Source of the DNA: Vulcanisaeta sp. JCM 16159
Lineage (GTDB): Archaea > Thermoproteota > Thermoprotei > Thermoproteales > Thermocladiaceae
DNA: 64,000 nt
Assembly: GCF_001316265.1 (NCBI RefSeq)
Contig: NZ_BBDN01000001.1
Coordinates: 1 to 64,000 of the forward strand
Reading direction: 5' to 3'
The notes beneath the pieces are model-generated. The model saw nothing but the letters and a program-made list of their open reading frames with translations, had not been told where the DNA came from and made no database searches. The stretch's first letter is position 1. The number at the start of each line of letters is the position of its first letter. Below are positions 34,415 through 56,717 of the stretch, in pieces. The position numbers were made by a program, and so were the translations under genes.

Positions 34415-35813
34415 ATGAAAGTTAAGAATATTATTATAAATTCTATAAGAAATATTATTATTCTTGCAGTTATAGCCTTAGCGATCTACATTGTACCCTA
34501 TATCATATATCTCCCCTACTTTATTTCATCAACACTTATATTCGTTGCGAGTGGCATACTCATGCCAATAATAATTTACTTAATAATTGATCTCGTAGGT
34601 AATTTATTAATGTCTACGAACATTAACACCATTAAGACCTTGGGCGTAGTTACGGTGCAGTTAATATCACCGGCCGTGTTAATATACCTAGTTCTTGCCG
34701 CGTTTGCATCTACATTATCACCGTTTAATAGGTTCATTAGTGTATCGGCGATTTTAATGTCAACATATTTAGCAATCCTTGGGTTATTGATTAGGGCATT
34801 CGGGTCTAGGTTTAATTATGTAGTTGGAGATTTAATAAGGGGCATTGGTACTACGGTACTGCTATTTGGCATGGCAATGCTTTTCTTACCAATATATGCA
34901 TTCACATATTCACTATATACCCAGTCAATAATTCCAGCGGCTCTACCCATATTAGCATTAGCCATATATAACGCATTCCTCTACACTGCCGTGACGGCCA
35001 TAGTAATCACGGCAATAATTTTTCTCGGATTCATAGCCCCATTAAGGCCCGTGTCCATGGACATGGCATACATGTCTGGTATGCTTATGTACGTAATAGC
35101 AATGATAAGTATGGTGATAGTACTTGGTACATTAACACCCTATAGTGGCTATATAACGGCATTATCAGTAATAGCATTAGTAATAACCATAGCCCTAATA
35201 AGCTATAGGCTCTTAACAGCATACTTAAGACTTGGCGAGAGTAAGGTGAGGGATGTATATCATGAATACGCAATTAGGGTTATGGAAAGAATTACGGTTA
35301 GTGATTATGAATTAATTAACGCCATAAATAACTTCATGATGAACGGGAATAAAGACGCATTATTAGAATACTCAATGAAAGCGCTGACACGCTGTAAGAA
35401 CGTAGGAACAAAAATACTGGATGAAATTAAGAAGTACGAACCGCCGTATTATGGAGGACTGTGGCCGTGGGGATCAAGTGACATTAGAAATAGAGCCATT
35501 AAAGACGCTGAATTAAGATCAAAAATATCCACAGAAATAATAACTTTAATATCAACATGCCAAGGAGGAAAACAAGAAATCCAGGTTGCGTCCAGCCACT
35601 ACCTCACCTGCCGTTTCAGCGTTCCAGTACACAGCCGAGGATGGTACTAGGGTTTATGCTCAGTCGTCTGAGGAGTTGCCTGTGAGGCCTATTGAGGAGG
35701 GGACTAGGGTGAGGCAGGAGGGCACGGTGGTTAGGTCGGGTGAATCCACGGTCGTAAGGACAAACGAGGAAAAGGAAGACGCAGAAAACACAGAAACAAC
35801 AAACCAACAATGA
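34415..35813 (+). CDS. Polytopic membrane protein with Thr-motif cytoplasmic tail (frameshifted)
   Basis: ATG 34415 (AAGGTGG site 8 bp before it) starts about eight or nine membrane helices up to residue ~275, followed by a soluble helical part (MERITVSDYELINAINNF). A shift near 35575 joins the frame 35586-35813. That frame encodes a charged tail with TAEDGTRVYAQSS, EEGTRVRQEGTVV and ESTVVRTNEE, so four Thr sit in the pattern acidic/Gly-Thr-x-Val/Ile. The same tail, identical at DNA level over 154 bp, ends the single-span protein at 53454. I infer that the tail is a substrate of the nearby kinase. The membrane family itself is not recognised. A PP2C gene follows 160 bp downstream on the same strand. 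Confidence 0.65.
35634..35787 (+). repeat. 154-bp inverted repeat, left copy (Thr-tail coding)
   Basis: This segment is identical, base for base as read by eye, to the reverse complement of 53495-53648. It codes for the acidic Thr-rich tail in both proteins, in the same reading frame. The two copies face each other 17.7 kb apart and bracket the signalling cluster. Confidence 0.9.
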
Positions 35814-35973
35814 TTGATACTGTTTTATTCCCTTAAACTTAGGGTTTACACCAATAAATTCATTAATAAGTAAGAAAAAGGAAAGAGATTAACGAGGTAA
35901 TTAATGATAATGGCATTATAATAAATTAATCATAATACTTAAAATTAGAGTTAAATAAATTGGAGTGGGGATT

Positions 35974-36985
35974 ATGTTCAATAAATTAACGCCTAAGGAG
36001 AGGTACAGGTTCTGGTGACCACATGCACGAATTACGCAGAATCACTGGCATTTACATACAAGGCCTACTTAAATGGCTATCCAACACTATCGTATGGCGT
36101 CCTCGTACCACACGAGGATACCAATACCGCATTGGCAGTATTGAGGAGGTTATTGTTAAACATGCCCATAGGTAATGAATTATTGATTAATTCGCATCAT
36201 TATATTTGGCATAATAATGTTGAGATAGTATCATCAAAGCAATTAAGGAAGTACTTACATGTAGTAGATGCTGAGGTCACTTCAGGTAAAGTCATTATCG
36301 CATCCCCATACTCAATAAAGGGCGCCAATAAGGAGAGGAATGAAGACTCAGCAGGCATACTATCAATTAAGTACTGTGGAGATACGATAACTTTATTTCA
36401 TATATTCGCTATAGCTGACGGCGTAAGTAGCCTCCATGGCGGTGACTACGCAAGCTCATTCTCAGTAAGGAGCTTCATCTCAGGCGCCCTATCATTAATA
36501 AATACCGTAAATACAGATCTCAAAGCCAACCTGAAGGAACTACTAATGAGAATACATATGGAGCTTCAGGACTATGCTGAGAAAAACAACGTTAATGTTG
36601 GAACCACCTTCACAGGCGGCATAATAATACAGAGAGACAATGCCGCAACAGCCACCATAGCACACATCGGTGATTCAAGGGCCTATAAGATAACCAGTAA
36701 TACCGTGAGTAGGTTAACGACCGACCATTCCCTCGGTGGTCACGTAATAACCCAGGCACTAGGCTACGTAATTAAGAATATTGATACATACGAAACAATG
36801 ATAGGACGAAACACATACCTGGTCCTAACCACGGATGGAGTAACCGACGTGGTGACTGATGACACGATAGGACGCATAGTCCATGAGTATAGGTACCCGA
36901 GGCACATATCATGGCTCTCGTGAGCGCGGCAGAGAAGCTTGGCTCTAAGGATGACACAACAGCATTAACAATATGGCGAACCTAG
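35974..36985 (+). CDS. PP2C-type protein phosphatase (frameshifted ends)
   Basis: The central frame (36015-36923) has PP2C motifs in order: KERNEDSAG, FAIADGVSS, GTTFTGG, AHIGDSRAYKI, LTTDHSLG, and LVLTTDGVTDVV. These provide the Asp ligands of the two-metal site. A shift near 36900 adds GSKDDTTALTIW, the usual last strand, ending at 36985. At the other end, ATG 35974 opens FNKLTPKERYRFW one frame off, so the true start is probably there. About 90 N-terminal residues form an extra domain not seen in minimal PP2Cs. It should reverse threonine phosphorylation by the kinase encoded convergently at 38.5-39.3 kb. Confidence 0.85.
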
Positions 36986-36986
36986 G

Positions 36987-38060
36987 CTAGGCCGTCGCCA
37001 CATCATCAAATGCATTACGTGACCTAAAACGCAAAACTACAAGCGCCACAGTAACCAGGATAATAAGGGATACTACGATAATAATTACGTCGCTAATAAT
37101 GGGCATACGCTTAGACTTAAAGCCGACTCCTATAATCATCGGTTCATTCACCGTTAAACCATTCAGCGACAGACTTCTATTAGTTATATTCGCAACGTAA
37201 CCATTAACTGGGAGGATCTCGTATTGATATGTTCCATTGGGAAGTAGAAGGGTTATTGTATTAGTATTTGATGACTCACGAGTACCATTAATACTAACCC
37301 ACCAAAGTGTACCTGAGGGCAAACCACTCTCAGTAAAGCTCACAAGGTAAACAGTAATTATTGGCGTCCAGTCGTATTGGTCTGTGGTTCTTGGTTGACC
37401 TAGTGGTTGGGTAACATATACCTTAAGCACCACATAGGCGTAGTAAGTGCCTGGTTGGCTTAGTGTGTAGGTGAAGTTGACGTTATTCACTCCTGGGTTT
37501 AAGGTTACTGACTGATTTCGTACCTGGGCGTTTAATGGGCTCTCCTGGCTTGATATGTAGACCGTGACTACGCCATTGAAGCTTACGCTCTGCGGATTAT
37601 AAACAACGACACTTACCGTAATTATCGCGCGCGACCCATTGCCCAATTGAGTGGAATTTACATAGACGTTCTTAATCCACGGCATATTCCTGGTGAAGTT
37701 GTACGTGATTGCCTTGCCTGGGAACACGTTTATTGTGAGGTTTCCCCAGTACTCCGTGTAGTTAAAGGCCGTGCTATTGGGGTAATAATACACATACAAT
37801 ATGTAGGTTCCGGGCTGGATACCTTTGAATATTAGTTGTGAATTATTGTTCATGAAGACAGGGCCCATGCCCTTCTCGTTGTATGCATTCACGAGTATGC
37901 CGTACACCACACCGTGCATGCTTGAGGCTGGCTTGCCGTTAACGTTAAAGATATTAACAGTAACGTTGCCCGCACTCGATTCAGCCATAACAACGTGAAT
38001 ACCCATCAATAATAGTATTAGGACTAAAATGCTGAGTCTAATCACGTAATCACCCAGCAC
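36987..38060 (-). CDS. Secreted single-span surface protein with Ig-like domains
   Basis: A signal peptide (about residues 6-26, ending VVMAES) precedes a beta-rich exterior. First comes a domain with VNIFNVNGKPASS, FMNNNSQLIF and PGTYILYVYYYP, then YTEYWGNLTINV, then a CARDB-like part with MPWIKNVYVN and SQPGTYYAYVVLKVYV, then a PEGA-like part (FTESGLPSGTLWWVSINGT). A membrane helix and a short basic tail follow. The first two domains recur closely in the giant protein at 39316-44593. The FHA frame's stop codon (38050) lies inside the beginning of this gene, so translation is probably coupled. Start is GTG 38060 or GTG 38045. No Thr motif is present in its 14-residue tail. Confidence 0.7.
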   Translation of the reverse strand: MLGDYVIRLSILVLILLLMGIHVVMAESSAGNVTVNIFNVNGKPASSMHGVVYGILVNAYNEKGMGPVFMNNNSQLIFKGIQPGTYILYVYYYPNSTAFNYTEYWGNLTINVFPGKAITYNFTRNMPWIKNVYVNSTQLGNGSRAIITVSVVVYNPQSVSFNGVVTVYISSQESPLNAQVRNQSVTLNPGVNNVNFTYTLSQPGTYYAYVVLKVYVTQPLGQPRTTDQYDWTPIITVYLVSFTESGLPSGTLWWVSINGTRESSNTNTITLLLPNGTYQYEILPVNGYVANITNRSLSLNGLTVNEPMIIGVGFKSKRMPIISDVIIIVVSLIILVTVALVVLRFRSRNAFDDVATA

Positions 38061-38507
38061 CTGGGTTCACCTTAAAGAGTATTTGTAAGTACGGGCCTTT
38101 GTTAACATCATAGGCTAGAGCGATTACGTCGCCATCCTAAGCTCGAACTCTGGGGACTCCTGCTTATAGCCTCTGTAAACCTCGATCCAGCGGCCGTCCC
38201 TGTAAACCGCCGTCCTATTCAGACTACCCAGGTCCTTGAGAAACCACTTATCGCCTTTCCTAAATATCATACAGTGTCTCTTACTGATGAACTTGTTCTC
38301 ATCGTAAATCTCAATCACAGCCTCACTACCCCTGTAATAAAACTCCGTTACGCCAGAAATGTCGTTCCTACCGAGTATTATGACGTCACTATTCACGTCA
38401 TACTTGGCACCCTTAATCACGAGAGAGATTGGTGTCTCGGCGGCCTTAACCTCACCACCGAGTAGGTCACGGAGCAGGTCACCTGCGGTTAAGTACCTAT
38501 TGCTCAT
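38050..38507 (-). CDS. FHA domain, probably the C-terminal half of a kinase-FHA protein
   Basis: Residues ~40-125 form a forkhead-associated domain, which binds phosphothreonine: VIILGRNDISGV, then FISKRHCMIFRKGDKWFL (Ser-x-x-His core) and DLGSLNRTAVYRDGRW in place of the usual N-G-T loop. Near 38140 a frame change replaces the stray end with DGDVIALAYDVNKGPYLQIL, the expected last strands, stopping at 38050. The beginning, NRYLTAGDLLRDLLGG, is not FHA sequence. It is the last helix of a Hanks-type kinase, so this frame very likely continues the kinase encoded immediately upstream. Confidence 0.8.
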
Positions 38508-39277
38508 GACGGGTCCATGGCCTTCCGAATAACCTTAACGATCCTCTCATCAACATTCTCGTTATACTTCCTTGGATCGGGGGGCGCAATTATGTTGTCG
38601 GGGTAGCCGGGCATGTCATACTCAGGGTCACGCCCAGTCACTAGGAAGTAAAGCACGGCACCAAGAGACCAAATATCACTCTGCGGTGACGAGAGAAACC
38701 GCCTTTGTTCAGGAGCCGTATAACCACCCGGTGATATTACAGCCTCATTAGACATGGGCTGATCATAGTAATACCTACTCGTTCCAAAGTCAATGAGCTT
38801 AACAACATTACCACCCCTCTCAATTAGTATGTTCTTGGGCTTTATATCCCTGTGAATAACATTGTTCTTATGCATGAAGGAGACAGCATCGCAGAGCTGC
38901 TTCATTACCTCAATGGCCATGCCTATAGAAGGCTTATTACTACGCACGAAGGAGTCCAGGCTAGGTCCATCGATATACTCAAGGACGAGTATCACGGGGT
39001 ACAAGTCGACATTAGAAACCGTGCGTAGGACCTCAAAGGCCTCGATGAGGCTCACGATATTCCTATGCCTAAGTATCTTGAGAACCCTCGCCTCATGCCT
39101 AATCTTCTCAATGTTAAGTCGAGTGCTTTGTAAATCATCCTCCCTGATGATGGGCTCCTTAACCACGAAGTGCTCACCGGAGTCAAGTCTCTTAGCCAGC
39201 CAGACATAGCTCATGCCACCCCCACCAAGCTCCCTAACCACAACATAATCCCTAAACTTAATACCAGGCTTAAGCAT
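38504..39277 (-). CDS. Hanks-type Ser/Thr protein kinase
   Basis: The catalytic domain is complete apart from its last helix. It has a glycine loop ELGGGGMSYVWLA, lysine in FVVKEP, HRDIKPKNIL as the catalytic loop (Asp and Asn present), DFGTSR for metal binding, and GGYTAPEQ as the APE motif. SDIWSLGAVLYFLVTGRDP forms helix F. It ends KAMDPS at 38504, exactly where kinases continue with a RYxTAxELL helix; that helix begins the overlapping FHA frame. No membrane segment is present, so it is cytosolic. It lies between a giant surface protein gene (upstream) and another surface protein gene (downstream), and probably shares the operator at 44626. Confidence 0.92.
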   Translation of the reverse strand: MLKPGIKFRDYVVVRELGGGGMSYVWLAKRLDSGEHFVVKEPIIREDDLQSTRLNIEKIRHEARVLKILRHRNIVSLIEAFEVLRTVSNVDLYPVILVLEYIDGPSLDSFVRSNKPSIGMAIEVMKQLCDAVSFMHKNNVIHRDIKPKNILIERGGNVVKLIDFGTSRYYYDQPMSNEAVISPGGYTAPEQRRFLSSPQSDIWSLGAVLYFLVTGRDPEYDMPGYPDNIIAPPDPRKYNENVDERIVKVIRKAMDPS

Positions 39278-39315
39278 TCAAAAATAATAAATGAAGAGAA
39301 TTATTTAAGCAATAC

Positions 39316-41544
39316 CTATGAAAGCCCTCTCCTACGTAACAAACCAATGTAAATAATAAACAAAGCCGCAACAACGGCTAGGGCAATAGCAACAATAGGC
39401 AAAACAACATTATTAAAGATATAACCCGAACTCGAAGAAACACCAGTGGAGGAAGGAACGGGGCTGGGCGAAACAACACTTGACGTATTAGAAACCCCGC
39501 CAATAGAAACCACACTCGCCCAATTTACACCAATTAACTCCGTAGAATTAATAAAGGAAGCCTTACTAGGCTCTAACTTAGCTGTTGTGGAATTAACAAC
39601 AACCTTAGTACTGCTCATGTAGAAGCCGGTTACGTTTAGGCTTGCCGAGGAGTTGGACTTTATCACAAGTCCATTTGGTGCTAGGCCGATAGTAACGGTG
39701 ACTGGCTTGCTCGAAGTGACATTAACTAGGAAACCAATGGCTGATGTTCTTGAAACACTCATGATAAAAGCACCAACACTCTCGTTAACCGGAGGATCTA
39801 AAACCAATAGATTTTCAACCAAGTTACCTATGAATTGATATAACAATGAGTTTGGAACAGCATATATCGATATACCACCATCAACCACGCTGACAACACC
39901 GAGATTTGTCAATGTAGAAGAAACTATTGATGAGGAAGGAGCAGCAATTACGGTATATCCATATAAATCATTTATTATTGATTCAATGAGTTGATTAGAA
40001 AATGTGCTAATAGTAAGTATATCAGGAGAGCTAATAAACCAATTCCATTCAGCTGGAGTGGGCTGAACCACGTAGAATGTTGTGAACGTATAACCGCTAG
40101 ATGTGTAGCTGAATGTACCAGTTGATGGGTTATAAATCGCAACCCTAATAGTACCTGGATAATCAGGGTCGCTAACCAATATTGCGTAGGAGCCATTGAC
40201 AAGCTTCGCATAACCCCAAGCAACAACAGCGTGAGCGATAACATTCCATTTATTCTGCGAATAGCTCCAGCTTTGCATGGCTAAAATTACAGGAGTTGGA
40301 GCCCCTTGTTTTGGATTTAAGTACGTAACTAAATCATTAAAATCATTTAATGTAATCCAGACGCCATTTACCTCTACCTGGTTGGGAATACTGCTACTAC
40401 CAGAATAATAATAATAACCATGGTTGTATGGATCAAATATTTGGTGTATTGCTATTTCTAGGGCTGCTGGTGTTAGCGGGTATTGCAGTGACGACACGAT
40501 TAAGTCGTTATGCGAATTTACCTGGCCTAGGTATAGTTGTGCCGTGGCTGTTGGCGTACTCGTTGGCCCATAATTCTGCAACGGGTAATAGGGCACTACT
40601 AGTCCATTGATTGTGTCCTCGCCAAGCACGTAACGATCAAAATAAAGTATTGCCGTGCTTGAGAAGCCATAGCAATTACCACCAGGCGAATAATTAGTGT
40701 TATAATTGGCGTAGGAGTACATGTCGAGGAACGGGTTCCAACCACTCACAACACTATAATCATTACCCTGTGGAATGAAAACAATATATATTGGGTCAAT
40801 GAAATTGAAACCGTTTCCACCCGTATATGCCTCCTGAGGCCATAACAGATCTGTTAAGTTTATCGTGAGCTGGTTCGGTATTGGTACATAGATAACCTTA
40901 TCATAATTATAATTATTAATAAATATTCTAACTATATAATAAATTATATGGCTAAAATCAACATCAAGTAAATTTTTATAGCCAATAAGTGGAGTTGCTG
41001 TAGTTGTACTAGGTAATCCCACACCCATTAAGATAGCATCTATCCATCCTTTAAGGGTAGATAATACTGCATTAGAAGAACCTTGAACATAAGAAACATA
41101 ATTATCAGCAACATTGTAATAGCTCTCCGATATAAGATACCATTCCCCATAATGAAGGCCTGTAGCCGAGCCGATGCCAAAAATGTAGCTACTTGATTTT
41201 GGCAGTATGAAGTAATTACTTAAGTTAAGAATGAAGAATGATAACCCTGTACCTGTGCTATGTTTAGTTAGATATCCTGCATATACTATACCTGTTAATA
41301 TATTATTACTTGAATTATAACTAATTATGATATTCAATTGCTTGGGTGCCATTAATGTTGTTAGGTTTATCGACCCTACCCCTATTCCGTTCCATGCCTT
41401 TATCACCTGCCCATTCGGCCCAATTATCCACACGTTCCACTGCCCGACAACGCCCACCTGCCTATAGGTGTTTTGCCAAACTGGATCCCACTGAACCACT
41501 ATGTATGGTGTTGAGCTCTGTGGGAAGAGTACCTCACCCATCAC
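39316..41544 (-). CDS. C-terminal 742-residue part of the giant protein: lectin-like plus papain-like peptidase
   Basis: This uninterrupted frame starts in a lectin-like domain (GQWNVWIIGPNGQVIKAW, parallel to the paralogue at 45915). It then has a domain with GGNCYGFSSTAILYFDRY (residues ~290-310), AHAVVAWGYAKL (residues ~450-461) and VSDPDYPG. The order Cys, His, Asp with these flanks fits a papain-fold peptidase of the C39-like kind. A Thr/Ser-rich stalk, a membrane helix (residues ~710-735) and RRRGLS close it. The peptidase would lie outside the cell. It could also be an isopeptide-forming or adhesive domain of the same fold. This piece is the C-terminus of the larger reconstructed gene. 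Confidence 0.6.
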   Translation of the reverse strand: MMGEVLFPQSSTPYIVVQWDPVWQNTYRQVGVVGQWNVWIIGPNGQVIKAWNGIGVGSINLTTLMAPKQLNIIISYNSSNNILTGIVYAGYLTKHSTGTGLSFFILNLSNYFILPKSSSYIFGIGSATGLHYGEWYLISESYYNVADNYVSYVQGSSNAVLSTLKGWIDAILMGVGLPSTTTATPLIGYKNLLDVDFSHIIYYIVRIFINNYNYDKVIYVPIPNQLTINLTDLLWPQEAYTGGNGFNFIDPIYIVFIPQGNDYSVVSGWNPFLDMYSYANYNTNYSPGGNCYGFSSTAILYFDRYVLGEDTINGLVVPYYPLQNYGPTSTPTATAQLYLGQVNSHNDLIVSSLQYPLTPAALEIAIHQIFDPYNHGYYYYSGSSSIPNQVEVNGVWITLNDFNDLVTYLNPKQGAPTPVILAMQSWSYSQNKWNVIAHAVVAWGYAKLVNGSYAILVSDPDYPGTIRVAIYNPSTGTFSYTSSGYTFTTFYVVQPTPAEWNWFISSPDILTISTFSNQLIESIINDLYGYTVIAAPSSSIVSSTLTNLGVVSVVDGGISIYAVPNSLLYQFIGNLVENLLVLDPPVNESVGAFIMSVSRTSAIGFLVNVTSSKPVTVTIGLAPNGLVIKSNSSASLNVTGFYMSSTKVVVNSTTAKLEPSKASFINSTELIGVNWASVVSIGGVSNTSSVVSPSPVPSSTGVSSSSGYIFNNVVLPIVAIALAVVAALFIIYIGLLRRRGLS

Positions 41545-45914: not shown

Positions 45915-46946
45915 TTATGATTTTCGTCTTCTTAATAATGCAATTACTATTACAATAATTACTATGACTACTGCCAATGCTATTTCAATTAATTGTGTAG
46001 ACCATTGAATTTGTTGTGCATAATTTGAAGAGTATAACAAGCCACCCGTGGTCACATTTATTAACCCCCAATTTGCATAGGAACCTCCTGTGTTTCCTGC
46101 TATTCCGAATGTGTATTGGCCTGGGCTTGGTGGTGTGAAATTACCATTTAGGCTGTAACTGAATGATGCAATCTGTCCAGTATTTAAATCCTCAGCATAG
46201 CCACTAACCGTATTATTGTATGGATTATAAATGACTGTAACTCTAATTAAGTCACCCGGATTAGGCTCAAAGGCGCCGGAACCAACACCATCAATAACAT
46301 CGGTTATTCCTGGCGTTGAGTTGCCATTACCAACGCCAATCCACACATTCCAATCACCTTGAGGTGTTAGCCCGGATCCATAACTCCACCACGGATCCCA
46401 CTGAACCACTATATACTTTGCGTTAGGCATTGCGTAGGGGAATATTACCTCGCCCTGAACGGAATAACTATTATCATTTGTGGCATATGGTATTGAGTAG
46501 TTTGATGCTGGGTTTATTGTTGACCAACCGCTCGGCTTTATGAAGAGGTATATCTCAAAGCCATCGGCTACACTTCCTATTGTACCTGTTGTGTACGTAC
46601 CCACGAGCATTATTGTAACATTACTACCATTGTAGTAACCACTCCAGAACATGGCGCCTGCGGAGCCGGTTTGTGATGGTACGAGCTCAAGGATTGGTTG
46701 ATTACTGCTTATGCCCGCTAAGGACCAGTATAGAGAGGCATTACTCGGACCATAATAAACCGGGTAATTATTAACAGGTTGACCGCCGTTATCACCCTGG
46801 TATACATGGGGTATGCACCAAACCTGCTCCGCAGATGTTAAGTACATAACCGTTTCACCATTACTGCATATACTCTGAGCATAGGTTACATGCACTAAAA
46901 TCACCAATAGTAAGGCCATTGTAACTAACACTACCCAACGCATCAT
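45915..46946 (-). CDS. Secreted single-span lectin-like protein
   Basis: The 343-residue protein starts MMRWVVLVTMALLLVILVHV, a signal peptide resembling that of the giant protein at 44593. The exterior is an L-type lectin-like beta-sandwich: GAMFWSGYYNGSNVTI, GFEIYLFIKPSGW, EVIFPYAMPNAKYIVVQWD, QGDWNVWIGVGNG, and YTFGIAGNTGGSYANW. Its middle matches the lectin-like part of the giant protein almost segment for segment. A membrane helix (residues ~315-338) and RRRKS anchor it. Operator 3 and a TTTATTAG box precede the ATG by the standard distance. Intact. Confidence 0.75.
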   Translation of the reverse strand: MMRWVVLVTMALLLVILVHVTYAQSICSNGETVMYLTSAEQVWCIPHVYQGDNGGQPVNNYPVYYGPSNASLYWSLAGISSNQPILELVPSQTGSAGAMFWSGYYNGSNVTIMLVGTYTTGTIGSVADGFEIYLFIKPSGWSTINPASNYSIPYATNDNSYSVQGEVIFPYAMPNAKYIVVQWDPWWSYGSGLTPQGDWNVWIGVGNGNSTPGITDVIDGVGSGAFEPNPGDLIRVTVIYNPYNNTVSGYAEDLNTGQIASFSYSLNGNFTPPSPGQYTFGIAGNTGGSYANWGLINVTTGGLLYSSNYAQQIQWSTQLIEIALAVVIVIIVIVIALLRRRKS

Positions 46947-47509: not shown

Positions 47510-48743
47510 CTACTGTTCTTTCTCCTTCACCCTTGTTTCCTCCTGCGCAGATTTTACCAATGTTTCACTACTATAAATTCTAGTTCCCTCCATCGATTGT
47601 TGCGGTAGTGAAGGCGGTGGAGGTGGTGCTGATTCTATGGGTCCCCTTGTCTCTCCACCGCCTTTACTACGCCTGCCCCTAATAGACATAATTAGTACTA
47701 TACCTATGATGATTACTAGGACAATAACTATAATCGTAACTATTAAGGATAAGCCTAAGGCTGGTTGCGTAGATGTGTGCGTAGACGGCTTTGTCGACAC
47801 GCCCAGTATACTTAATGCCTCATTTATATTCTGCTCTAGGTTACTTAGGCTACTACCATAAACGACAAGGAGTGCGCCATTAGCTGATGTGGTATCGTTA
47901 CTAAATACTAGGCCTATTACCTTATCAAATCCCCAGCCGTTGGCTGAAACTACGTAGTACCCATCAATGGGTGTTAGTGGGTATAGTGCTAAGTAGTATG
48001 TGCCCACGCCAGGTTGGTTAATCTCCATCCAGGCAAATTGACCCGCACTTGGCGGTATATAAATAATAGCAAAGCTACCTGGCGTGAATTGATCCGGGGT
48101 TAGGGTTGCCTTAAAGCCCCAGTTAATGGCTAGGTTATACATCTCATTGGGATCCTGGGCTGGGAAGGAGTAATTACCAACACCTAAAGCAACAACCCAC
48201 GTTGTTTCTCCAGGATTAGCGTCAACGTAAATGTCATTAATGAAGTTAATTCCATACCAAACCATTGTGGATTGAGGCAGGTTACTTACAGTGAAGTTAA
48301 CGTAAACCACCGGGAGATTACCAACCAATTCATAGTAGGTAACCTCCCTTAAACCATTGCTTGCATTAATTACTCCAAGTATTGTGCGCCCATTCACAAT
48401 GTATAACTTAGTATAAGGCCCTATCTGCGGGGCACCATCACCAGCACCAGTATAACCATTATAGTAAAAGAGGTGCACAGTCTCACTAGCCTTAAGTCGC
48501 CTATGAATAGGTTAGGATAGTTGCATGGGTTTCCACCGTTTAACGCCACACTAAAAACATCCCAATGCACTGGGTAGGTATTACCGGGGTAGGGCGGTGG
48601 GTTATTAAACTGAATACAGGCGACCCCATTTGAAATTAGGGGGCTGGTTAAAGGACCCTGTAACTGGGCGAGGGCTATTAGGGAGCTACAGACATTATTA
48701 ATATTAAGATTGCCATTCCCATTAGTAATTGCCTAGCCTTCAC
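47510..48743 (-). CDS. Secreted single-span protein with Thr-motif tail (frameshifted)
   Basis: GTG 48743 gives KARQLLMGMAILILIMSVAP, a signal peptide whose end (IALAQLQGPL) requires a shift near 48690. A second shift near 48500 joins the long frame. The extracellular part (about 320 residues) is beta-rich and unrecognised. A membrane helix (LIVTIIVIVLVIIIGIVLIM) is followed by a cytoplasmic tail with a poly-Pro stretch, then MEGTRIYSSETLVKSAQEETRVKEKEQ written in parts as EGTRIYSS, SETLVKS and EETRVKE. The Thr motifs match those of the 35.8 and 53.5 kb proteins. Operator 4 and a TATA box precede it, shared with the divergent gene at 48836. Confidence 0.7.
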
Positions 48744-48803: not shown

Positions 48804-48835
48804 ATTTAAAAAAAATAAGAAATAAACGCCTGTTT

Positions 48836-49411
48836 ATGCAGGCGGAAGGAGTGTTTAGGATTAATAAGAATTTAATAATATATGCGACGGAGTATGGCTT
48901 GGTATTTCAAGTTAGGAATTCACGTAATTTATTGATAAACTACAATAATATACTTAGGGCTAGGTATATTCGTAAAGGGAGGAATATCGATGCTGACTCG
49001 CTTATAAGTGGGATAACGATGTTAATGCTCACATTCTCTTTCTACTATATGGCTGCTCAATTGCAGATACCAGTTTCCGGCGGATTATTTTTCGTTAGCA
49101 TTTCCTTTCTTATCGTGGGTATACTAATCATAATTGCCAGTGTTATTGGTAGTAAGACCAAGCATAGGCTAGTACTATATGTTGCAAGATCAAAGAATCC
49201 TATAATAATAGATGGAGATCCATCCCAAATAGCTGCGTTATTTAGCATTATAAAGAATAAAATAGCTACAATTAATTCGCAATACGCATCTTCATCGACG
49301 GTTTCACAACCACTGCCACAAACTAAGGTTCAAACCACAGTAACTGAGAGCTATGAGGAGCTTGAAGTGAGGCCGTTTACGGGAGATGATCAAACAGTTG
49401 TAAAAAGTTGA
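48836..49411 (+). CDS. PH-like membrane protein with Thr-motif tail
   Basis: The 191-residue protein has a strand-rich start (NLIIYATEYGLVFQVRN), two membrane helices in the middle (about residues 60-78 and 84-103) and a second strand-rich part (HRLVLYVARSKNPIIIDGD), as in PH-like domains split by a helical hairpin. The tail from residue ~150 is Ser/Thr/Gln-rich and ends ESYEELEVRPFTGDDQTVVKS, written here as EELEVRPF and DDQTVVKS. EEL-VRP recalls SEELPVRPIEE of the 154-bp repeat tails, and DQTVV fits the same Thr pattern. ATG 48836 lies 28 bp from its TATA box beside operator 4. Confidence 0.65.
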   Translation: MQAEGVFRINKNLIIYATEYGLVFQVRNSRNLLINYNNILRARYIRKGRNIDADSLISGITMLMLTFSFYYMAAQLQIPVSGGLFFVSISFLIVGILIIIASVIGSKTKHRLVLYVARSKNPIIIDGDPSQIAALFSIIKNKIATINSQYASSSTVSQPLPQTKVQTTVTESYEELEVRPFTGDDQTVVKS

Positions 49412-49534
49412 AGTTAAGGATAATATTTCTAAAAGTTAACTAATCTAGATCATGACTATTGATTAAGCGAATTTCCCACCCATCTTTGCTTTATTCTGAA
49501 ATAAAATTAATACAGTACCGTAACCGCAAATGTT

Positions 49535-50129: not shown

Positions 50130-50159
50130 ATAAAGACCATTATTAACTGGTATTTATAC

Positions 50160-50185
50160 TTTAGTCACGAGTATATGTGACTAAA
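50160..50185. promoter_or_regulatory. Operator 5 of the shared regulon
   Basis: TTTAGTCACG-AGTATA-TGTGACTAAA, one deviation in the right arm. The minus-strand TATA box (GTATAAATA) follows directly, 26 bp before GTG 50129. Confidence 0.85.
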
Positions 50186-50229
50186 AGTATTTTTAGCATT
50201 TTAAGGTATAAATTTAGGTTTCATTGAGT

Positions 50230-50949
50230 TTAAATAATCGTGCTTGATTGAACTATAGCTAAGGCCTTATCCACGGCTGTGGAGTATTTCCTTAGGGCTG
50301 GGAAGACGAGTATAAATACTATGATGTATGATAGTATGAGTAGGATTGTGGCCGTCTTGAACTCCTCTATGCCGTATCTATCCCTTAACCTCAGGGAACC
50401 TATAATAACCGCCATTACGAAGCCGACCAGATCCACTAAGGCTATTATACCAATGATAATGAGAAGAATCAAGTCTCCCAAGTTAGGGACAGGTTGAAGC
50501 GTTGTAATGTAGATTAACATGTTAGGTTTAGCAAGTAGCAATATAAGAAGTAATGCTAACGCAGATAACGCAAGGTTAGCCCCAAGGTAGGGCCTAGCGA
50601 AGATAGGCGATATCCCACTTAATATCTTGAGCGATCTACGTAAATAAATTAATGCAATTAGTTGCATTAGGATACCCACGTAGGCAGCGACAAGCCCACC
50701 CTCAATACCGGCATTAATGTCTGAACCACTGATGCTGATGATTGATACCTGTGAAGCGAGTGATAAATAAACTGATACTATTATTAAGACGGCCCCTATA
50801 TTGCCAATTATTACGCTATTAAAGAGGAGTTTAGCAAAGTTTTTCGCATTAAGTAGGGCGGGAATTTCATCCTTAGAGAATGAGACAGCTTGGTGTTGAG
50901 CAAAGCTGCTTTGCGTGGGTCCTTCGCTAAAATTACCCTGAGTAGTCAT
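50230..50949 (-). CDS. Polytopic membrane protein of the cluster
   Basis: The 239-residue protein has a hydrophilic start (QGNFSEGPTQSSFAQH) and about six membrane helices, in pairs, with short loops such as RRSLKILSGISPIFAR and SLRLRDRYGIEEFKTA. The family is not recognised; the layout is like small membrane proteins of the DUF996 type. It is intact. Its promoter shares operator 6 with the divergent membrane protein gene at 51041, so both respond to the same regulator. The short tail has no Thr motif. Confidence 0.6.
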   Translation of the reverse strand: MTTQGNFSEGPTQSSFAQHQAVSFSKDEIPALLNAKNFAKLLFNSVIIGNIGAVLIIVSVYLSLASQVSIISISGSDINAGIEGGLVAAYVGILMQLIALIYLRRSLKILSGISPIFARPYLGANLALSALALLLILLLAKPNMLIYITTLQPVPNLGDLILLIIIGIIALVDLVGFVMAVIIGSLRLRDRYGIEEFKTATILLILSYIIVFILVFPALRKYSTAVDKALAIVQSSTII

Positions 50950-50982
50950 AGATGATGAACCTAAGTAATTGAACTAATAAAT

Positions 50983-51008
50983 TTTAGTCACGGATCAACG
51001 TGACTAAA
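50983..51008. promoter_or_regulatory. Operator 6 of the shared regulon (divergent)
   Basis: TTTAGTCACG-GATCAA-CGTGACTAAA with perfect arms. It lies between two TATA boxes, serving ATG 50949 (minus, 28 bp) and ATG 51041 (plus, 30 bp). Read on the minus strand, its spacer (TTGATC) equals that of operator 7. Confidence 0.9.
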
Positions 51009-51040
51009 TTTAAGAGGATTAAGCTAAGTGTCATAAGGCT

Positions 51041-51991
51041 ATGACTGATCAAGGACCTGGATCAGTTAGTACATCTTCAATACTTAGTAGGGTTCTTGAT
51101 GTATCGATGCTTACGGAATATAATAAACGTTTTATTAGTTTATGGGCAGGTTTGCTTACTGGTTTAAGTATTATACTTTACTCTGTCTCGTTCATATTCT
51201 TAAACCTTGCATCTGCAGCTCCCCTTATTAGTACGGTTGCATACGCGTTTTACTTACTACTTGGCCTATTAGCGTTATTCATAGGCTTTAAGAGGACAGT
51301 CCCATCAACCATCTTCATTTACGTATCACTCATATTGGTTTCTCTATACTTTGTTCTTCTTGGTGTATCAATAATTTTTTTTCCGGATATATAATTTCCC
51401 CCACTGTTCTGATAATTAGTGGCATATTAATTCTGACACCGTTATTTAGAAGGAAGCAAAGGGAAACAGTGGATAGGGTTATTACGTACTTTTTTTGTGA
51501 TGGTCGGGTTAATCCTTGCATATATAGGGGTAATTACAATTAGTATAGTAATCACTGGTAATATGTGGATGAGCGCCAATATTCCTTACATTGTTCTTAC
51601 TTCAAGCTTCTTTGCGTCATACACCTCAATGGCATCTGCAATACTTTACATACTTACATTAATGGTTAGGGAATACATCAATAAGTATCCAATTGGCAGG
51701 GACATAATAGAGTTCCTCACTTACCTTGTATTCCTAATTTACGGCGCAGGTGAGATATACCTAGGGGGGTCTGTGATATCACTTATTGGGTCTGTAATTT
51801 CATTCTACGCATTAGCTAGGTATTCCATGTTCACTTTCTTATTTATCGCCGGGTTAATAAATGCGTTGGCCGGCGTCTTAGTCATGCTCTCAGCCTTAAT
51901 AGCAATCTACCTTCAATATAAGCGGTTGCAACCAATACTGCGGCAAGTCAAGGCGGCGCTAGGTCCATACATCCAGCCACAACAAGTGTAA
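51041..51991 (+). CDS. Polytopic membrane protein (frameshifted in two T runs)
   Basis: Three frames join into about 316 residues: 51041-51394, a middle frame, and 51497-51991. The shifts fall at a run of eight T's (about 51376-51383) and a run of seven T's (about 51490-51496), the clearest evidence in the window for homopolymer errors. The middle piece reads FFSGYIISPTVLIISGILIL and RRKQRETVDRVITYFF. In all there are about eight membrane helices. The start TDQGPGSVSTSSILSR is hydrophilic. The final segment (YLQYKRLQPILRQVKAALG) is soluble. Family not recognised. It shares operator 6 with the gene at 50949. Confidence 0.6.
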
Positions 51992-52109
51992 CCTTATAAC
52001 CTAGATATTTATAGTATTACATGTAAAAATTAACTTTTCAAAATAATGCATTTATATACTCTGTCTCATCATGCCAAAGAAAAGGTAATAATCCTACTTC
52101 TCTTTTATT

Positions 52110-52135
52110 TTTAGTCACGTTGATCCGTGACTAAA
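52110..52135. promoter_or_regulatory. Operator 7 of the shared regulon
   Basis: TTTAGTCACG-TTGATC-CGTGACTAAA with perfect arms. The TATA box TTTATTAA (52137-52144) follows at once and lies 27 bp before ATG 52168. Confidence 0.9.
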
Positions 52136-52167
52136 ATTTATTAATGCTTATTATGATTAATTAGTGT

Positions 52168-52569
52168 ATGTCGAGTCAGGGTGGTTCTGGTCAGGGTGGT
52201 CAAAGACCTGAGTTGGGTAGTATTAGGACTGAGTTGCTTGTTGCGTTTATCTTCGCCATAATAGCTGCCATAATTTACCTTGTGGAGATGGGTATAATAT
52301 TCGCAGGTGCGGCAGCCATGGGTGCCTATGGATTTGGAGTTGGTGTTGGTATGTTTGTTGGTATTGGCATAGTTTGGCTTATTCTGCTTATTATCGACAT
52401 CGTTGTTCTTCTGCGTATTTACAGGATGTACAAGGCCGCGGGCAGTGGTGATGTGGCTACACTGAAGTCCCTAAACTCCATTGGCTGGGCAATAATTGCA
52501 TTGCTCTTTAGTGGTTTAATACCGGGAATAATGTTATTAATAGCTCATGGACCAATAGAGAGATTGTAA
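52168..52569 (+). CDS. Small membrane protein with Gly-rich N-terminus
   Basis: The 133-residue protein starts SSQGGSGQGGQRPELGS and has about three membrane helices (residues ~22-45, ~52-80 and ~105-125), with YRMYKAAGSGDVATLKSLNS as the cytoplasmic loop. This resembles small DUF4064/DUF996-like membrane proteins, but the assignment is weak. It is intact and has its own operator (52110-52135) and TATA box at leaderless distance, so it belongs to the regulon. It is the last operator-controlled gene on the right side. Confidence 0.6.
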   Translation: MSSQGGSGQGGQRPELGSIRTELLVAFIFAIIAAIIYLVEMGIIFAGAAAMGAYGFGVGVGMFVGIGIVWLILLIIDIVVLLRIYRMYKAAGSGDVATLKSLNSIGWAIIALLFSGLIPGIMLLIAHGPIERL

Positions 52570-52663
52570 ATTACCTGTTAATTGAATTTTAGTAAAAATA
52601 GTATTAATTATTCCTTATCTGAAGGTTAATGCTTAAATATGACTATACACTGAATTCTAGTCT

Positions 52664-53431
52664 ATGAAAGTTAATGAGTTTGGTACTATTGATGGTGACC
52701 TAGCATTTATAGCCAATATAATGATGAAGCTTTCCTATAGTGATCCCTGTATTAGGTTTGGTTTGCTCGCGGATCAAGTTGGTTGGCATAGGCAGAAGCT
52801 CCTGAGGGTTTTGAGGAGGGGCATTAGGATGGGGGTTATTGCTAAGTGCGGTGATGGTAGTTATGAATTAGTAATGCCGATCTTCAGGAGCGTGGTTGAG
52901 AAGGAGGATATAACACTTAATGTGGTTAGACTTACGAATGGGGGTCTCGTAGTGAACCACAATGTTCACGTTATACTTCGCAATACAGGGTTGATGGACA
53001 TGGATCGCGTCTTTGTTAGGGTCTACGGAGACCTTGACTGGGGCGAACCCCTCAGGTTTACGTGCTGCGGTGTTACTATTACCGAGAAACTTAATAGGAT
53101 TAGGTGCCCACATGGTTTCTGCAACTTCATATTTAGGCTTGGTAGGGCCGTTAAGTCAGGAGAGACTATTAGATACGGCTATTCATTCAATCTGTATTAC
53201 TACATGCCCATGGACTACTTCAGCATTGACGCCATTAATCATATAAAGAGGTTGATAATTAGGGTGCCCAGGTCATTTAATGAATGGGGTATAAGGATTG
53301 AGGATGCCGAGTTATTGGGTAATGGCTTTATGACGAAGCACGTGAATAATAAGCATAATATATTAGTTGGGAAAAACCTAATGCCGCCCACGGTGTTAAA
53401 GATGAGGATAGCGTTTCTGAGAATTGAATAA
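52664..53431 (+). CDS. Winged-helix DNA-binding-like protein, candidate regulator
   Basis: Residues ~10-75 look like a winged helix: ANIMMKLSYSDPCIRFGLLA, ADQVGWHRQKLLRVLRRGIR as the probable recognition helix, then the wing MGVIAKCGDGSYELV. The rest (about 180 residues) is beta-rich, with CCGVTITEKLNRIRCPHGFC carrying four cysteines that could bind a metal. No membrane segment is present. It lies within the cluster, directly right of operator 7, but has no operator of its own. It is a reasonable but unproven candidate for the protein that binds TTTAGTCACG-N6-CGTGACTAAA. Intact. Confidence 0.55.
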   Translation: MKVNEFGTIDGDLAFIANIMMKLSYSDPCIRFGLLADQVGWHRQKLLRVLRRGIRMGVIAKCGDGSYELVMPIFRSVVEKEDITLNVVRLTNGGLVVNHNVHVILRNTGLMDMDRVFVRVYGDLDWGEPLRFTCCGVTITEKLNRIRCPHGFCNFIFRLGRAVKSGETIRYGYSFNLYYYMPMDYFSIDAINHIKRLIIRVPRSFNEWGIRIEDAELLGNGFMTKHVNNKHNILVGKNLMPPTVLKMRIAFLRIE

Positions 53432-53453
53432 TAAGGCATTTTAAGTAGGACCC

Positions 53454-55666
53454 TTACCCCTTATCCTTGGTCTCCTCTTTCTGTTGGCCGCTGCTTTCTG
53501 CGTCTTCCTTTTCCTCGTTTGTCCTTACGACCGTGGATTCACCCGACCTAACCACCGTGCCCTCCTGCCTCACCCTAGTCCCCTCCTCAATAGGCCTCAC
53601 AGGCAACTCCTCAGACGACTGAGCATAAACCCTAGTACCATCCTCGGCAACTCCCCTAACCGCTGTGCCCGGTTCGCTACCGCCCCTCCTGACCATGGTT
53701 GTTGCCCTCCTAATTATCATCGTAGTCACATACCTAACCTTATCCCTATAGGCAATACCGAGACCTAGCAGGGCAACGCCAGCTCCAAGGCCTATTACAT
53801 TAACTAGGTTGTAGTTCCATACTAGTTCTATGGTTGTTGGTCCGTTTATTGAGGATAGGCTGACCACGCTTGAGGAGGTGGTGCTTGAGCCCGTACTTGT
53901 CTGTATCACGGCGTGGCTATAGGCCAGTGGAATTATTGGGTTTGAATTGTTCGGTTTATAGTTAAGTGCATTAATGCTAAAGCTTCCTCCTTTATCGACC
54001 CAGTAAGTCCCCTCCGTAATTGTTGTTGAGCTACCTAGGCCTGAAATAACATCCTCAACGATTACCTGGTACTGCATCACCCACTGGGCCATACAATTAA
54101 TCGGTGAGTTCACGGTTATCACGGTCGTGGATGCTGGATAACCGCAGGACCAACCTGGAATACTAGTCTCGAGCCATTGTTGTAGCTTATTGATGGTGGT
54201 ATTGATGGTAGGTTTACTGTGGAACCCTTATTAAACCAACCACTCACTGACTTGCCGGTGACGGGGTCCGTAATTGATACGTAGTACTCCTTAATGTAGT
54301 ATGCTGTTAAGGTCGTTGGTCCGTTAACGTTCACAGTGATGGTGGTGGAGGTACCATAACCGTTGGACCAGTAATCAAATACGTATTGTTCGTCATTACT
54401 AATGCTCACTGTGCCTGGTACAGAAATGACGTAAGTGCCTGGTGTAACCCATAGGCTATTGGTCTCCTGTCCATTTATGCTTGCTAATGCATTAACCGGT
54501 GTGCCATCCACAGAGACCAGGTTAACCGTTAATTGCGTGAGAACTGTGACGTTTATCTTGAAGGTATCTATAAACACGCCGCTGCCGAATGGCCATGAGT
54601 AGGTTAGGCCTAGGGTTATTACGCCATTGCCTGCCGTAGTGGGGGTTAGGTATAATGTGACTGTTAAGTCGCCACCACTATCTACCTGTGTGGTTGATGG
54701 CACGGCATAAACATTTGAGGCGATGTTGGATACTGCCGTTACTTCGATATTGCTTGCGGTATAGCCTGTGTTTTGTAGGGTAATGGTTATTACGTTTTGT
54801 TCGCCCTCATGGAGTATTGTGGTGCTTACACTAACTATGGTAAATGGCCCTGGCCTACTTGGTAATACATTGATGCCTATGGACGCTGAATTATCTAAGT
54901 AGCCATCACCGTATACCGAAACAGTTATTGTGTCGCTAATGGGGTTGTTCGATGGCTTCACATATATCGGTACATTAATCGTTGCCTCGCCCTGGGCAGG
55001 TACCGTGACTTGCATCGGCTGTGCACTTATCAGGCCCGCACTATCGCTAACCTCTACGGTGTAGGTGTAGGAAATGTAGCCCGTATTTTCTATACTGACA
55101 ACCAGTCTGTATGTATTATTGCTAGGCAATGCCGTTACTTCCTGATTATTGCTGTTGACTATATAAGGGGTACCCACAATAGTGGCAGGTGGGTGATCCT
55201 CCTCAACATAATTGGCACTGCCACTAACGCAGTCTGGTGTGATTGCATTATTAACAACGAGACACGCGGTCACCTGCGCCGTGTATGTGGCGCCATTATA
55301 AATTGGCGGTACTATCTCAAATGGCACATAATACGCATAACCACCTGGTATAACGCCTGAGTATTCCTGTGTACCTGATGGTCCGCTCATGGTTATGGTT
55401 AAATAAACCTGCTGCCCCGAGAACACATTTTCAAGGTTTATAATCATATTGAACTCCTCACCATTATAAAACACTGATTGTGGTTGGAAATTTGTATTGG
55501 TAAAATACACGATCTGATTTTCTAGCGATACGCCAGATGGGACGGGTAATATGGGAATGCCATTGGAGCCCTGTGCGTGTATTGCCATGGCCGTGGCAAT
55601 TAATATCAGTGATATAATGATGAATGATTTTGATAAGTACACTCTGCCATGGTTCATTTTATCCAC
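53454..55666 (-). CDS. Secreted single-span protein with Ig-like domains and Thr-motif tail (frameshifted)
   Basis: Two frames (54119-55666 and 53454-54122) join near 54135 into about 735 residues. A signal peptide (ending AMAIHAQ) precedes several CARDB-like domains (VFYNGEEFNMIINLENVFSG, VVSIENTGYISYTYTVEV, ITLQNTGYTASNIEVTAV). Repeat-type domains follow (LTAYYIKEYYVSITDPVTG, WVDKGGSF). After a membrane helix (VIGLGAGVALLGLGIAY) the tail reads AEDGTRVYAQ, SEELPVRP, EEGTRVRQEGTVV and ESTVVRTNEE. It is identical in this part to the tail of the 34.4 kb protein. Its start overlaps the upstream FHA-receptor gene by eight bases, so the two are co-translated. Confidence 0.75.
53495..53648 (-). repeat. 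154-bp inverted repeat, right copy (Thr-tail coding)
   Basis: Reverse complement of 35634-35787 without a mismatch that I could find. It encodes the acidic Thr-rich tail of the protein at 53454-55666. Sequence on both sides is unrelated to the left copy, so only the tail module is shared. Confidence 0.9.
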
Positions 55667-56717
55667 CGCCTGTGTATACCTGTGTTGATTCCTCAGCTAT
55701 GAATTTTATGTCTAGTACTCCTGCTGGGCTTATTGTGTCTCCGTTTTTGAGTTCCTGTGGTCCCTTGCCCTTTATCTCCTTGCCGTTGAGTAGTGTTCCG
55801 TTTGTGCTGTTTAGGTCCTCCACATACCACTTATTACCCCTTAGGAAAATCCTGAAATGCCCACCACGCTCCTCCCTACTAATCATCTGGAGAACATCAG
55901 GCGGAACACCATACCTCTCAAAGGTCTCCCTACCAAAAACCCTAACAGCCTCAGTAACCGGAACCTCAACACCATTAGGCAACCTCAAACGATAAAGAAC
56001 AACACCAACCTTGGTCGCTTCCCTCCTTTCAGAGACGATGGTTGGCCCCGTAACTGATGGGCGTGGTGAGGGCGGTGGCGCGGTGATCTGTGGGGGTGGT
56101 TGTGCCGGGGCTGCCTGGCGTTGGGTACTCGGTCTCCTTAGATACATAACGGCACCTATTGCGGCTATGATTATTACTACCGCCACTATTATTGCTATGA
56201 ACAATGGTGACATGGAGGATGACGGTGTTGGTGCAGGTGTTGGCGTTGGTGAAACGCCAATGTCTACCTCAAAGGATGCTGACTGAGTCTGCCCCGTGTT
56301 TGGATTTGATACGGTGACCACTATCGTCCAGGTACCGGTGGGTGTTGAACTGCTTATTGGGTTTATTAATGGTAAATACGAATTTTGATAATCAACTAAA
56401 CTAAGTGATCCCGAATACAAAGTTTCTGTAGCGCCGCTTGGTGTTCGCCCAGTTACAACAATATTAACGTTACAATTTGATGCTGACTGCGATTGTAACC
56501 TAAGTGTTACGTAAAGAGATTCACCGACATTAAATACTGATTGAGGATTACCACTTGAGTCAGACGGGTAAATGACTATTGGACCGCATCCAACATCGAC
56601 GAATGTCTGAGGTACTTGCGACATTAGGATTGATGGTAGTATTAATGTGGTTATTATGAAGACTATTATAAGACTTGCCTTTAGCGTCTTAATTCCGTGG
56701 TTAGTCATTGTTATCAC
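55659..56717 (-). CDS. Receptor-like membrane protein with cytoplasmic FHA domain
   Basis: The 352-residue protein has a signal peptide (residues ~12-34), an extracellular Ig-like domain (VFNVGESLYVTLRLQSQS, GTWTIVVTVSNPNTGQTQSA), a Pro/Thr/Ser stalk, and a membrane helix at about 168-190. A Pro-rich cytoplasmic linker and an FHA domain from about 250 follow: RVFGRETFERYGVP, MISREERGGHFRIFLRGNKW, and VEDLNSTNGTLLNGKEI. The N-S-T-N-G loop and Ser-Arg pair are canonical for phosphothreonine binding. The last residues, EESTQVYTGGG, themselves fit the Thr motif and could be phosphorylated and bound by an FHA domain. It is first in a two-gene operon with 53454. No TTTAGTCACG operator precedes it, but TTATCA-CA-TGATAA lies near 56773. 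Confidence 0.82.
   Translation of the reverse strand: MITMTNHGIKTLKASLIIVFIITTLILPSILMSQVPQTFVDVGCGPIVIYPSDSSGNPQSVFNVGESLYVTLRLQSQSASNCNVNIVVTGRTPSGATETLYSGSLSLVDYQNSYLPLINPISSSTPTGTWTIVVTVSNPNTGQTQSASFEVDIGVSPTPTPAPTPSSSMSPLFIAIIVAVVIIIAAIGAVMYLRRPSTQRQAAPAQPPPQITAPPPSPRPSVTGPTIVSERREATKVGVVLYRLRLPNGVEVPVTEAVRVFGRETFERYGVPPDVLQMISREERGGHFRIFLRGNKWYVEDLNSTNGTLLNGKEIKGKGPQELKNGDTISPAGVLDIKFIAEESTQVYTGGG

Follow-up and report, generated by a model that had tools for sequence, protein, structure and literature searches.

The window, by which we mean the whole 64,000-nucleotide stretch analyzed here, is from contig 1 of the 28-contig, 2.25-Mb genome of Vulcanisaeta sp. JCM 16159 (G000; completeness score 63%). 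A genomic island at positions 34260–56940 (taken as a whole, without strand) encodes a kinase-FHA protein, a PP2C phosphatase, a transmembrane (TM) FHA receptor, and several further membrane and secreted proteins, and the same site is empty in sister genomes. The block 34415–56717 proposed in the initial annotation, which was made from the sequence alone, fits the ends of this island nearly exactly. In our view, the island probably encodes a phosphothreonine switch that acts on cell-surface proteins, is mobile and self-contained, and in some lineages would control a pilus-like apparatus.

The kinase-FHA gene was located at 38053–39277 on the reverse strand, where a PknB-like kinase (38507–39277) is followed by an FHA domain, and two frame breaks cut the gene in the window. 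The kinase open reading frame (ORF) terminates with ..KAMDPS, and the FHA ORF carries on with ..SNRYLTAGDLLRDLL in another frame. In relatives, the two domains were found in one protein of 394–420 amino acids (G024a, G024b, G008, G009, G033, G035, G042, and G003) or 574 amino acids (G023), as the initial annotation had supposed in joining them. The PP2C phosphatase is encoded at 36015–36985 on the forward strand, and its final ~20 amino acids, including SKDDTTALTIW, lie in another frame. The Hanks kinase, the PP2C phosphatase, and the two FHA domains that had been named from the sequence were all recovered with Pfam, at E values of 2.8e-41 (Pkinase), 2.1e-8 (PF00481; PF13672 also matched), 7.8e-9 (kinase gene), and 2.3e-12 (receptor); all four matches are above the curated cut-offs. 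The catalytic Lys, Glu, HRD-Asp, Asn, and DFG-Asp residues (K40, E62, D144, N149, and D163 in G024b numbering) are invariant in the nine aligned sequences, and so are the GR and His of the kinase FHA domain (9/9).

The best NCBIfam models are PknB_PASTA for the kinase-FHA protein, Stp1/IreP for PP2C, and FhaB for FHA, and the solved kinases closest to this one are of the bacterial Stk1/PknB type. In these respects the module resembles the PknB (Stk1)-Stp1/PstP-FhaB set, and because the three proteins are placed nearest to these models, descent from a bacterial set is possible. Unlike that set, the module scores far under the equivalog cut-offs (170 versus 450 bits for PknB_PASTA with the G024b kinase-FHA protein, 91.6 versus 230 for Stp1, and 38.6 versus 125 for FhaB). 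No TM helix is predicted in the window or G024 kinase, and a C-terminal FHA domain takes the place of PASTA. PP2C is already known in archaea, with 439 of 57,520 PF13672 sequences (PMC12088040).

The receptor is encoded at 55659–56717 on the reverse strand and consists of a signal helix, an ectodomain, a TM helix, a linker, the FHA domain, and a tail. The AlphaFold2 model (mean predicted local distance difference test score of 77.2) has a β-sandwich ectodomain at residues 37–153, the TM helix at 171–193, a disordered linker, and a cytosolic FHA domain at 240–341, with threonines in the linker (T235) and in the C-terminal tail (T345, in STQVY). The residues of FHA domains that bind phosphothreonine are established, and this set (GR, R..H, and N-G; here G262, R263, R281, H287, N311, and G312) is invariant in all nine receptors. 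The receptors of the window, G020, G008, G009, and G023 have a T-K-[VL]-G sequence immediately N-terminal to their FHA domain. The top six Foldseek matches of the receptor are FHA domains, namely FhaA, DgcB with its tail, Ki67, OdhI, GarA, and DgcB with a phosphopeptide. The next match is RbmA, a Vibrio biofilm scaffold protein, which possibly arises through the ectodomain.

The motif acid-T-x-[VI] was found in the cytosolic tails or linkers of five window proteins, one of them the receptor. The second, a multi-TM protein designated 8TM (34403–35813, forward strand), has its predicted cytosolic Thr tail in another frame at 35586–35813; its homologues in G020 and G024 are single ORFs that include the tail, and the frame switch was located with the G024a protein. 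The third, IgTM (53454–55666, reverse strand), is a large surface protein with an Ig-like/β-repeat ectodomain, one TM helix, and a cytosolic Thr tail that lies in 53454–54122. It occupies two ORFs of one gene in the window and is unsplit in G033, G035, G042, G008, and G009; the AlphaFold2 model of the G042 protein is all-β, with its C-terminal 61 residues disordered. By sequence, 47510–48478 (reverse strand) is predicted to be a surface protein with a C-terminal TM helix and the tail GTRIYSSETLVK..EETRVK; G020 has a homologue of the ectodomain, and no DNA match to the tail region was found there. Likewise, 48836–49411 (forward strand) reads as a small membrane protein with the tail YEELEVRPF..DDQTVVKS and without a Pfam match. 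The initial annotation was right about the Thr tails and had counted four such proteins; there are five because the 8TM tail sits in its second frame.

In the five window stretches that were tested (IgTM, 47510–48478, 48836–49411, receptor linker, and receptor C-terminal tail, the 8TM copy being dropped), 10 acid-T-x-[VI] sites were observed versus 1.35 in composition-preserving shuffles, an approximately seven-fold excess. None of 20,000 shuffles reached 10. The tails had been picked by eye after inspection, so this test is not blind; the linker stretch ended before the V of T235-K-V, and the T235 site was thus uncounted. When the acid condition is removed, 15 sites were found versus 3.7 in the shuffles. 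The same procedure applied to 14 stretches from relatives (leaving out the G020 tails, the G009 IgTM, and the second G035 IgTM) gave 19 acid sites versus 3.8, which was equalled by none of 20,000 shuffles, and 27 versus 8.2 for the pattern without the acid. The density of acid sites is 38 per 1000 amino acids in the five window stretches versus 2.2 in the 51 window ORFs outside the block. Of 355 ORFs of ≥150 amino acids, 12 have at least two acid-T-x-[VI] sites within their C-terminal 60 residues: nine module membrane proteins, two PP2C cores, and one vWA protein.

An exact 154-bp repeat, present at 35634–35787 (forward strand) and as an inverted copy at 53495–53648 (reverse strand), gives the otherwise dissimilar 8TM and IgTM proteins an identical 51-residue tail with the motifs TRVY, TRVR, TVVR, and TVVR. 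The exactness of the repeat suggests recent gene conversion. The sharing of the tail is not a mere assembly error, since in G020 both proteins carry homologous tails that have diverged. A search of the 45 genomes of the order with the 51-residue tail returned 16 matches at E ≤ 1. Each of the six with E < 0.01 falls at a module locus (G000, G020, and G024 contribute two apiece), with no further copies elsewhere in these genomes at that threshold; the other 10 (E 0.027–0.53) are chance-like. A core of EEL-x-V-[RK]-P plus T-x-V is common to 8TM, IgTM, and the 48836–49411 protein. Beyond the order, two membrane proteins next to the module, which we read as zinc-ribbon proteins from their CxxC pairs, end in ..DEETKVY (G125) and ..DDTKIY (G323). 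Another module neighbor in G125 carries ..SDTKIY, and the IgTM tail of G189 has EGTRVR past the TM helix. CxxC membrane proteins that end in T-K-[VI]-Y adjoin the kinase-FHA and PP2C genes at loci L089 (G125) and L093/L084 (G323).

The form of the motif fits that of phosphosites in bacteria, such as the pT-V-V of TssL and the pT-S-I of DgcB. In GarA, the sequence ETTS is followed by VF. Phosphorylation of GarA takes place at this ETTS, ahead of its FHA domain (PMC12321487, in part). For TssL of Agrobacterium the phosphosite is given as ..DLPpTVVEITEE (PMC5995506, in part), and in DgcB of Bdellovibrio ..LEKpTSIVASDT is bound by the FHA domain of the same protein (PMC6733907, in part). Since the +2 residue of the module motif is constant while +3 varies, the motif may reflect the preference of the kinase more than that of the FHA domains.

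A different account of these genes is that they are chance neighbors, in which a general Arn-like kinase/FHA/PP2C regulator lies beside unrelated surface genes and the tails are low-complexity acidic segments with no role as phosphosites. It is true that these archaea often have a kinase beside an FHA gene, with or without vWA, and that the tails are acidic, repetitive, and in relatives partly motif-free. However, the excess of the motif over composition-preserving shuffles, the core common to 8TM, IgTM, and the 48836–49411 protein, the confinement of the clear cassette matches to module loci, and the presence or absence of the genes as a single island all speak against this account, and we regard it as quite improbable.

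In the window, frame breaks affect each of the kinase-FHA, PP2C, IgTM, and 8TM genes, and in G020 they also affect the kinase-FHA and IgTM genes. These breaks could be taken to mean that the block is decaying and that its core genes are pseudogenes. However, other genomes have intact copies of these genes, the assembly scores just 63% complete, and breaks are as common in the backbone as in the island. The conserved flank has 14 frame switches over 13.6 kb (1.03/kb, tallied with 19 G015 proteins as queries; G018 proteins were also run and are excluded from the tally), and the island has 7 over 9.6 kb (0.73/kb, a rough rate obtained with 9 partly overlapping and partly homologous queries). Because breaks are equally frequent in the flank, the split genes are most likely assembly noise, and decay of the block is very unlikely. 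Conserved genes across window positions 24000–64000 carry ~1 frame break per kb. With an assembly this noisy, the ORF calls in the window therefore understate the genes.

The extent of the island was determined from sister genomes. A search of 12 genomes of the genus was made, and in the seven examined at the site (G015, G016, G018, G019, G022, G024, and G025, with G017, G021, and G023 left out) the flanking genes 56924–57607 and 32956–33812 are only 0.1–0.9 kb apart. The ends were set by intergenic DNA homology in six of these genomes (all but G025): homology to the empty-site DNA reaches ~34.2–34.25 kb on the left in four of the six and restarts at ~56.94 kb on the right in all six. A 14-kb version of the island occupies the same site in G020 with a different gene order, and in G024 the module genes are on contigs 74 and 87 while the insertion site, on contig 115, is empty. 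On these grounds, the whole block is acquired or lost together.

A patchy distribution and a shared insertion site would also be expected of a surface-variation or conflict island, in which the secreted, adhesin-like proteins would be central and the kinase, PP2C, and FHA proteins would be its own dedicated regulator, of expression or of conflict between cells, and not a clustering system. The secreted genes of the island do differ between G000 and G020. In PADLOC, the kinase domain has matches to many kinase models, of which mad6 is the best (E 2.2e-56). A protein at 52664–53431 looks by eye like a DNA-binding protein, without a Pfam or NCBIfam match. Set against this, the other nine of the 10 proteins given to PADLOC had no match, and no integrase, transposase, or phage family was found by Pfam among the 23 island ORFs scanned. 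The core of kinase, PP2C, receptor, and IgTM is kept across families and the secreted genes are not. We consider such an island unlikely, although less so than a chance neighborhood. A defense system was not adopted, the PADLOC match being to the kinase alone. A phage origin was likewise set aside: among 10 island proteins searched against PHROGs there was a single match, that of the secreted protein at 45915–46946 to the C-terminus of phrog_17320 (1373 positions, function unknown; E 1.2e-15).

The initial annotation had raised the question of whether the genes are kept together in relatives, and they were found to be: co-location holds in two of the order's families and also outside the order. 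In the 45 genomes of the order, FHA was matched in 42 and PP2C in 10. Eight of the 12 PP2C matches are within 10 kb of an FHA match, for which two crude rates give chance probabilities of ~1e-10 or 1e-5; the figure of 12 is a lower bound, as PP2C genes on G024 contig C74 and G023 contig C124 were missed and were recovered by BLAST and our own profiles. In a phylum sample of 398 genomes, the kinase-FHA profile has matches at E ≤ 1e-25 in 56, mostly to the kinase part only. As our profiles derive from these loci, the loci match them by construction. For 17 genomes with a kinase-FHA gene (16 from the phylum sample, including the broken G000 and G020 genes and the partial G125 gene, plus G009; G007, with a kinase and IgTM near a contig end, was omitted), the same stretch contains PP2C in 14, a complete or partial TM-FHA receptor in 12 (counting the ectodomain alone in G024 and a gene cut by the contig end in G023), and IgTM in 8. 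PP2C is not in the stretch in G339, a 6.1-kb contig, or in G049 and G366. In G008 and G009, just the four core genes stand side by side. The G003 variant (L040, 13926–19162) has a zinc-ribbon FHA protein, a vWA protein, the kinase-FHA protein, and PP2C, followed by a protein with many ankyrin repeats. A contig scan with the receptor profile returned at least 80 loci, and among the matches listed 5 have archaeal and 75 bacterial titles.

Other kinase, PP2C, and FHA genes were found in these genomes. A separate vWA-PP2C-kinase triad (L024, contig 2 of G000, 230324–233890), which we take to be TerY-P-like, is in the same genome as the window and accounts for one of the four PP2C matches that are not within 10 kb of an FHA match. 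In G020, a broken vWA and PP2C pair homologous to this triad (L192) is ~25 kb from the module. The third FHA protein of the window genome, on contig 8, is of a short kind that is single in many genomes of the order. Loci L097, L098, and L100, which are among the five with archaeal titles, are ordinary vWA-FHA-kinase trios from Desulfurococcales or Thermoproteota metagenome-assembled genomes.

In G035 and G042, the locus includes a T2SSE-type ATPase whose C-terminal part carries EETLVAEETKVVEETLVA (G035) or EETVVWEETRLLEETLVA (G042) immediately ahead of an FHA domain, so that EETxV-like repeats precede the ATPase's own FHA. The T2SSE family (PF00437) was matched at 86.2 versus 24.9 bits by the whole G035 protein and at 39 and 30 bits by two pieces of the G042 protein, which is 71% identical to it. 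The best NCBIfam models for the G035 ATPase are FlaI and then BasE, both under the cut-off. In both genomes, the neighbors include a T2SSF gene (PF00482), genes for a large secreted protein and for a vWA-FHA protein, and seven short ORFs whose N-termini have hydrophobic stretches. One of the short ORFs, MRAVAGISGVVVTVLL.., reads like a pilin, while no pilin family was matched by Pfam in the seven short G042 proteins. A stand-alone FHA protein is additionally present in G035 and G033. In G110, a T2SSE-like ATPase (by our own profile only, and with no FHA domain in its C-terminus) and a T2SSF protein (85.8 versus 25.2 bits, E 3e-24) adjoin the module. The pilus locus of Thermoproteus uzoniensis is described as having at least six additional unique components (PMC4858521); in the available part of that text FHA appears only for ArnA and in one reference title.

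The remaining genes of the window can be described briefly. A secreted or TM protein at 36987–38060 (reverse strand) has homologues by the PP2C and kinase-FHA genes in G020 and G024b. Beside PP2C, it has a second conserved C-terminal tail, DDV(A/T)TA, that is without T-x-V and reads DDVATA in the window and G020 and DDVTTA in G024b. The PH-like membrane proteins mentioned in the initial annotation hold up poorly, as 49671–50129 matches bPH_3 below the cut-off (E 0.035) and 48836–49411 not at all. Two matches to the IgTM profile, 20796–22001 and 23339–23884, are beyond the island in the conserved flank, and a homologue of the latter is present in G015 and G018.

We propose that a surface signal would cause the soluble PknB-like kinase-FHA protein to phosphorylate threonines in the cytosolic acid-T-x-[VI] tails of membrane proteins. 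Once phosphorylated, the tails would be bound by the FHA domains of the kinase and the receptor, the tail proteins and the kinase would be gathered in a membrane patch with positive feedback, and PP2C would provide the reset. The tail itself may be a portable address tag, of which dissimilar membrane proteins have received copies. The same code would extend to the type IV filament ATPase in G035 and G042, where the switch would most likely govern filament assembly or activity; this is suggested by the EETxV-like repeats and the FHA domain of the ATPase, and by comparison with the type VI secretion pathway. That the writer, eraser, reader, and probable substrates belong to one system, as was claimed initially, is favored by their conserved co-location, by the gain or loss of the island as a whole, and by the occurrence of clear tail matches only at module loci; tail phosphorylation, FHA binding, clustering, the stimulus, the output, and the surface-sensing role named in the initial annotation are what we infer from these sequences. 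We are more tentative about a narrower version, an island-borne archaeal phosphothreonine addressing system in which one tail cassette is placed on dissimilar surface proteins, the FHA readers are on the kinase, the receptor, and, in Thermoproteus/Pyrobaculum-type loci, a filament ATPase, and the post-translational switch for surface machines is triggered by contact and resembles the one in bacterial type VI secretion; it is possible, at somewhat less than even chance.

Several observations weigh against a phosphothreonine switch of this kind. Four of the 14 stretches from relatives are without acid-T-x-[VI] (G042 IgTM, G042 7149–9272, G033 IgTM, and G007 IgTM), the second G035 IgTM, which was outside the test, has a Lys/Arg-rich end with no such pattern, and the linker threonine is missing from the G035, G042, and G033 receptors. 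FHA domains often read the +3 residue (PMC6733907, in part), which is the position that varies here. G049 and G366 have a kinase-FHA gene with neither PP2C nor a second FHA gene in the stretch. No T2SSE or T2SSF match was found among the 23 window island ORFs scanned, and so the link to a filament need not apply to the window.

By analogy, the module appears to work like the type VI secretion system (T6SS) threonine phosphorylation pathway and the GarA/DgcB switches, while being a member of neither. As in the PpkA-PppA-Fha pathway of T6SS, a Hanks Thr kinase, a PP2C phosphatase, and FHA proteins are encoded together, and in some variants they occur with a secretion- or pilus-type machine. In Agrobacterium, phosphorylation of the inner-membrane protein TssL recruits an FHA protein, according to the portion available of PMC5995506. 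In contrast to that pathway, the kinase of the module is soluble with a C-terminal FHA domain, FHA is also found on a TM receptor, one tail cassette is common to several membrane proteins, and the machine is an archaeal one with a type IV filament ATPase; no T6SS structural family was found by Pfam among the 23 window island ORFs or the scanned G035 and G042 proteins. With GarA/OdhI and DgcB, whose FHA domains have a phosphorylated N-terminal tail of their own, the module shares a Thr motif ahead of FHA, and all three are among the top Foldseek matches of the receptor. It differs from them in that its FHA domains are on a receptor, a kinase, and, in variants, a filament ATPase, and binding in trans to the tails of other proteins would be expected.

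The Arn network of Sulfolobus (the FHA protein ArnA, the vWA protein ArnB, the kinases ArnC/ArnD, and PP2A), as far as its description was available, is similar in tying archaeal FHA/kinase signaling to a type IV pilus-like machine. However, the Arn phosphatase is PP2A and that of the island is PP2C (the search for PP2A covered the island), and Arn has a soluble zinc-ribbon FHA protein plus a vWA protein whereas the FHA proteins of the window are a TM receptor and a kinase-FHA. A vWA-FHA protein was found in G033, G035, and G042, and zinc-ribbon FHA plus vWA in G003. ArnA and ArnB are stated never to occur in pilus or archaellum loci (PMC4858521, in part), whereas in G035 and G042 FHA is fused to the ATPase. 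FHA-kinase fusions are reported for cyanobacteria and Chloroflexus, and the multidomain archaeal kinases named in the part available are glycoprotease fusions (PMC1262709). The initial annotation had stated that no archaeal system of this composition was known. We found no description of the module in the open-access literature searched, a scope outside of which most subscription papers lie, and the statement has to be qualified in that the Arn network is akin and PP2C is known in archaea.

Archaeal Ser/Thr signaling is known mostly from Sulfolobus, and few of its substrates are defined. Here, one portable unit encodes the writer, the eraser, the readers, and the probable substrates, and it supplies peptide sequences that can be tested. 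Variants are found in what are probably cultured species, Thermoproteus uzoniensis (G042) and Pyrolobus fumarii (G110). If the proposed function is correct, the ATPase of G035 and G042 would be, as far as our limited literature searches go, the first archaeal example of a type IV filament ATPase that includes an FHA domain, and it would offer a direct route to the post-translational control of pili in archaea.

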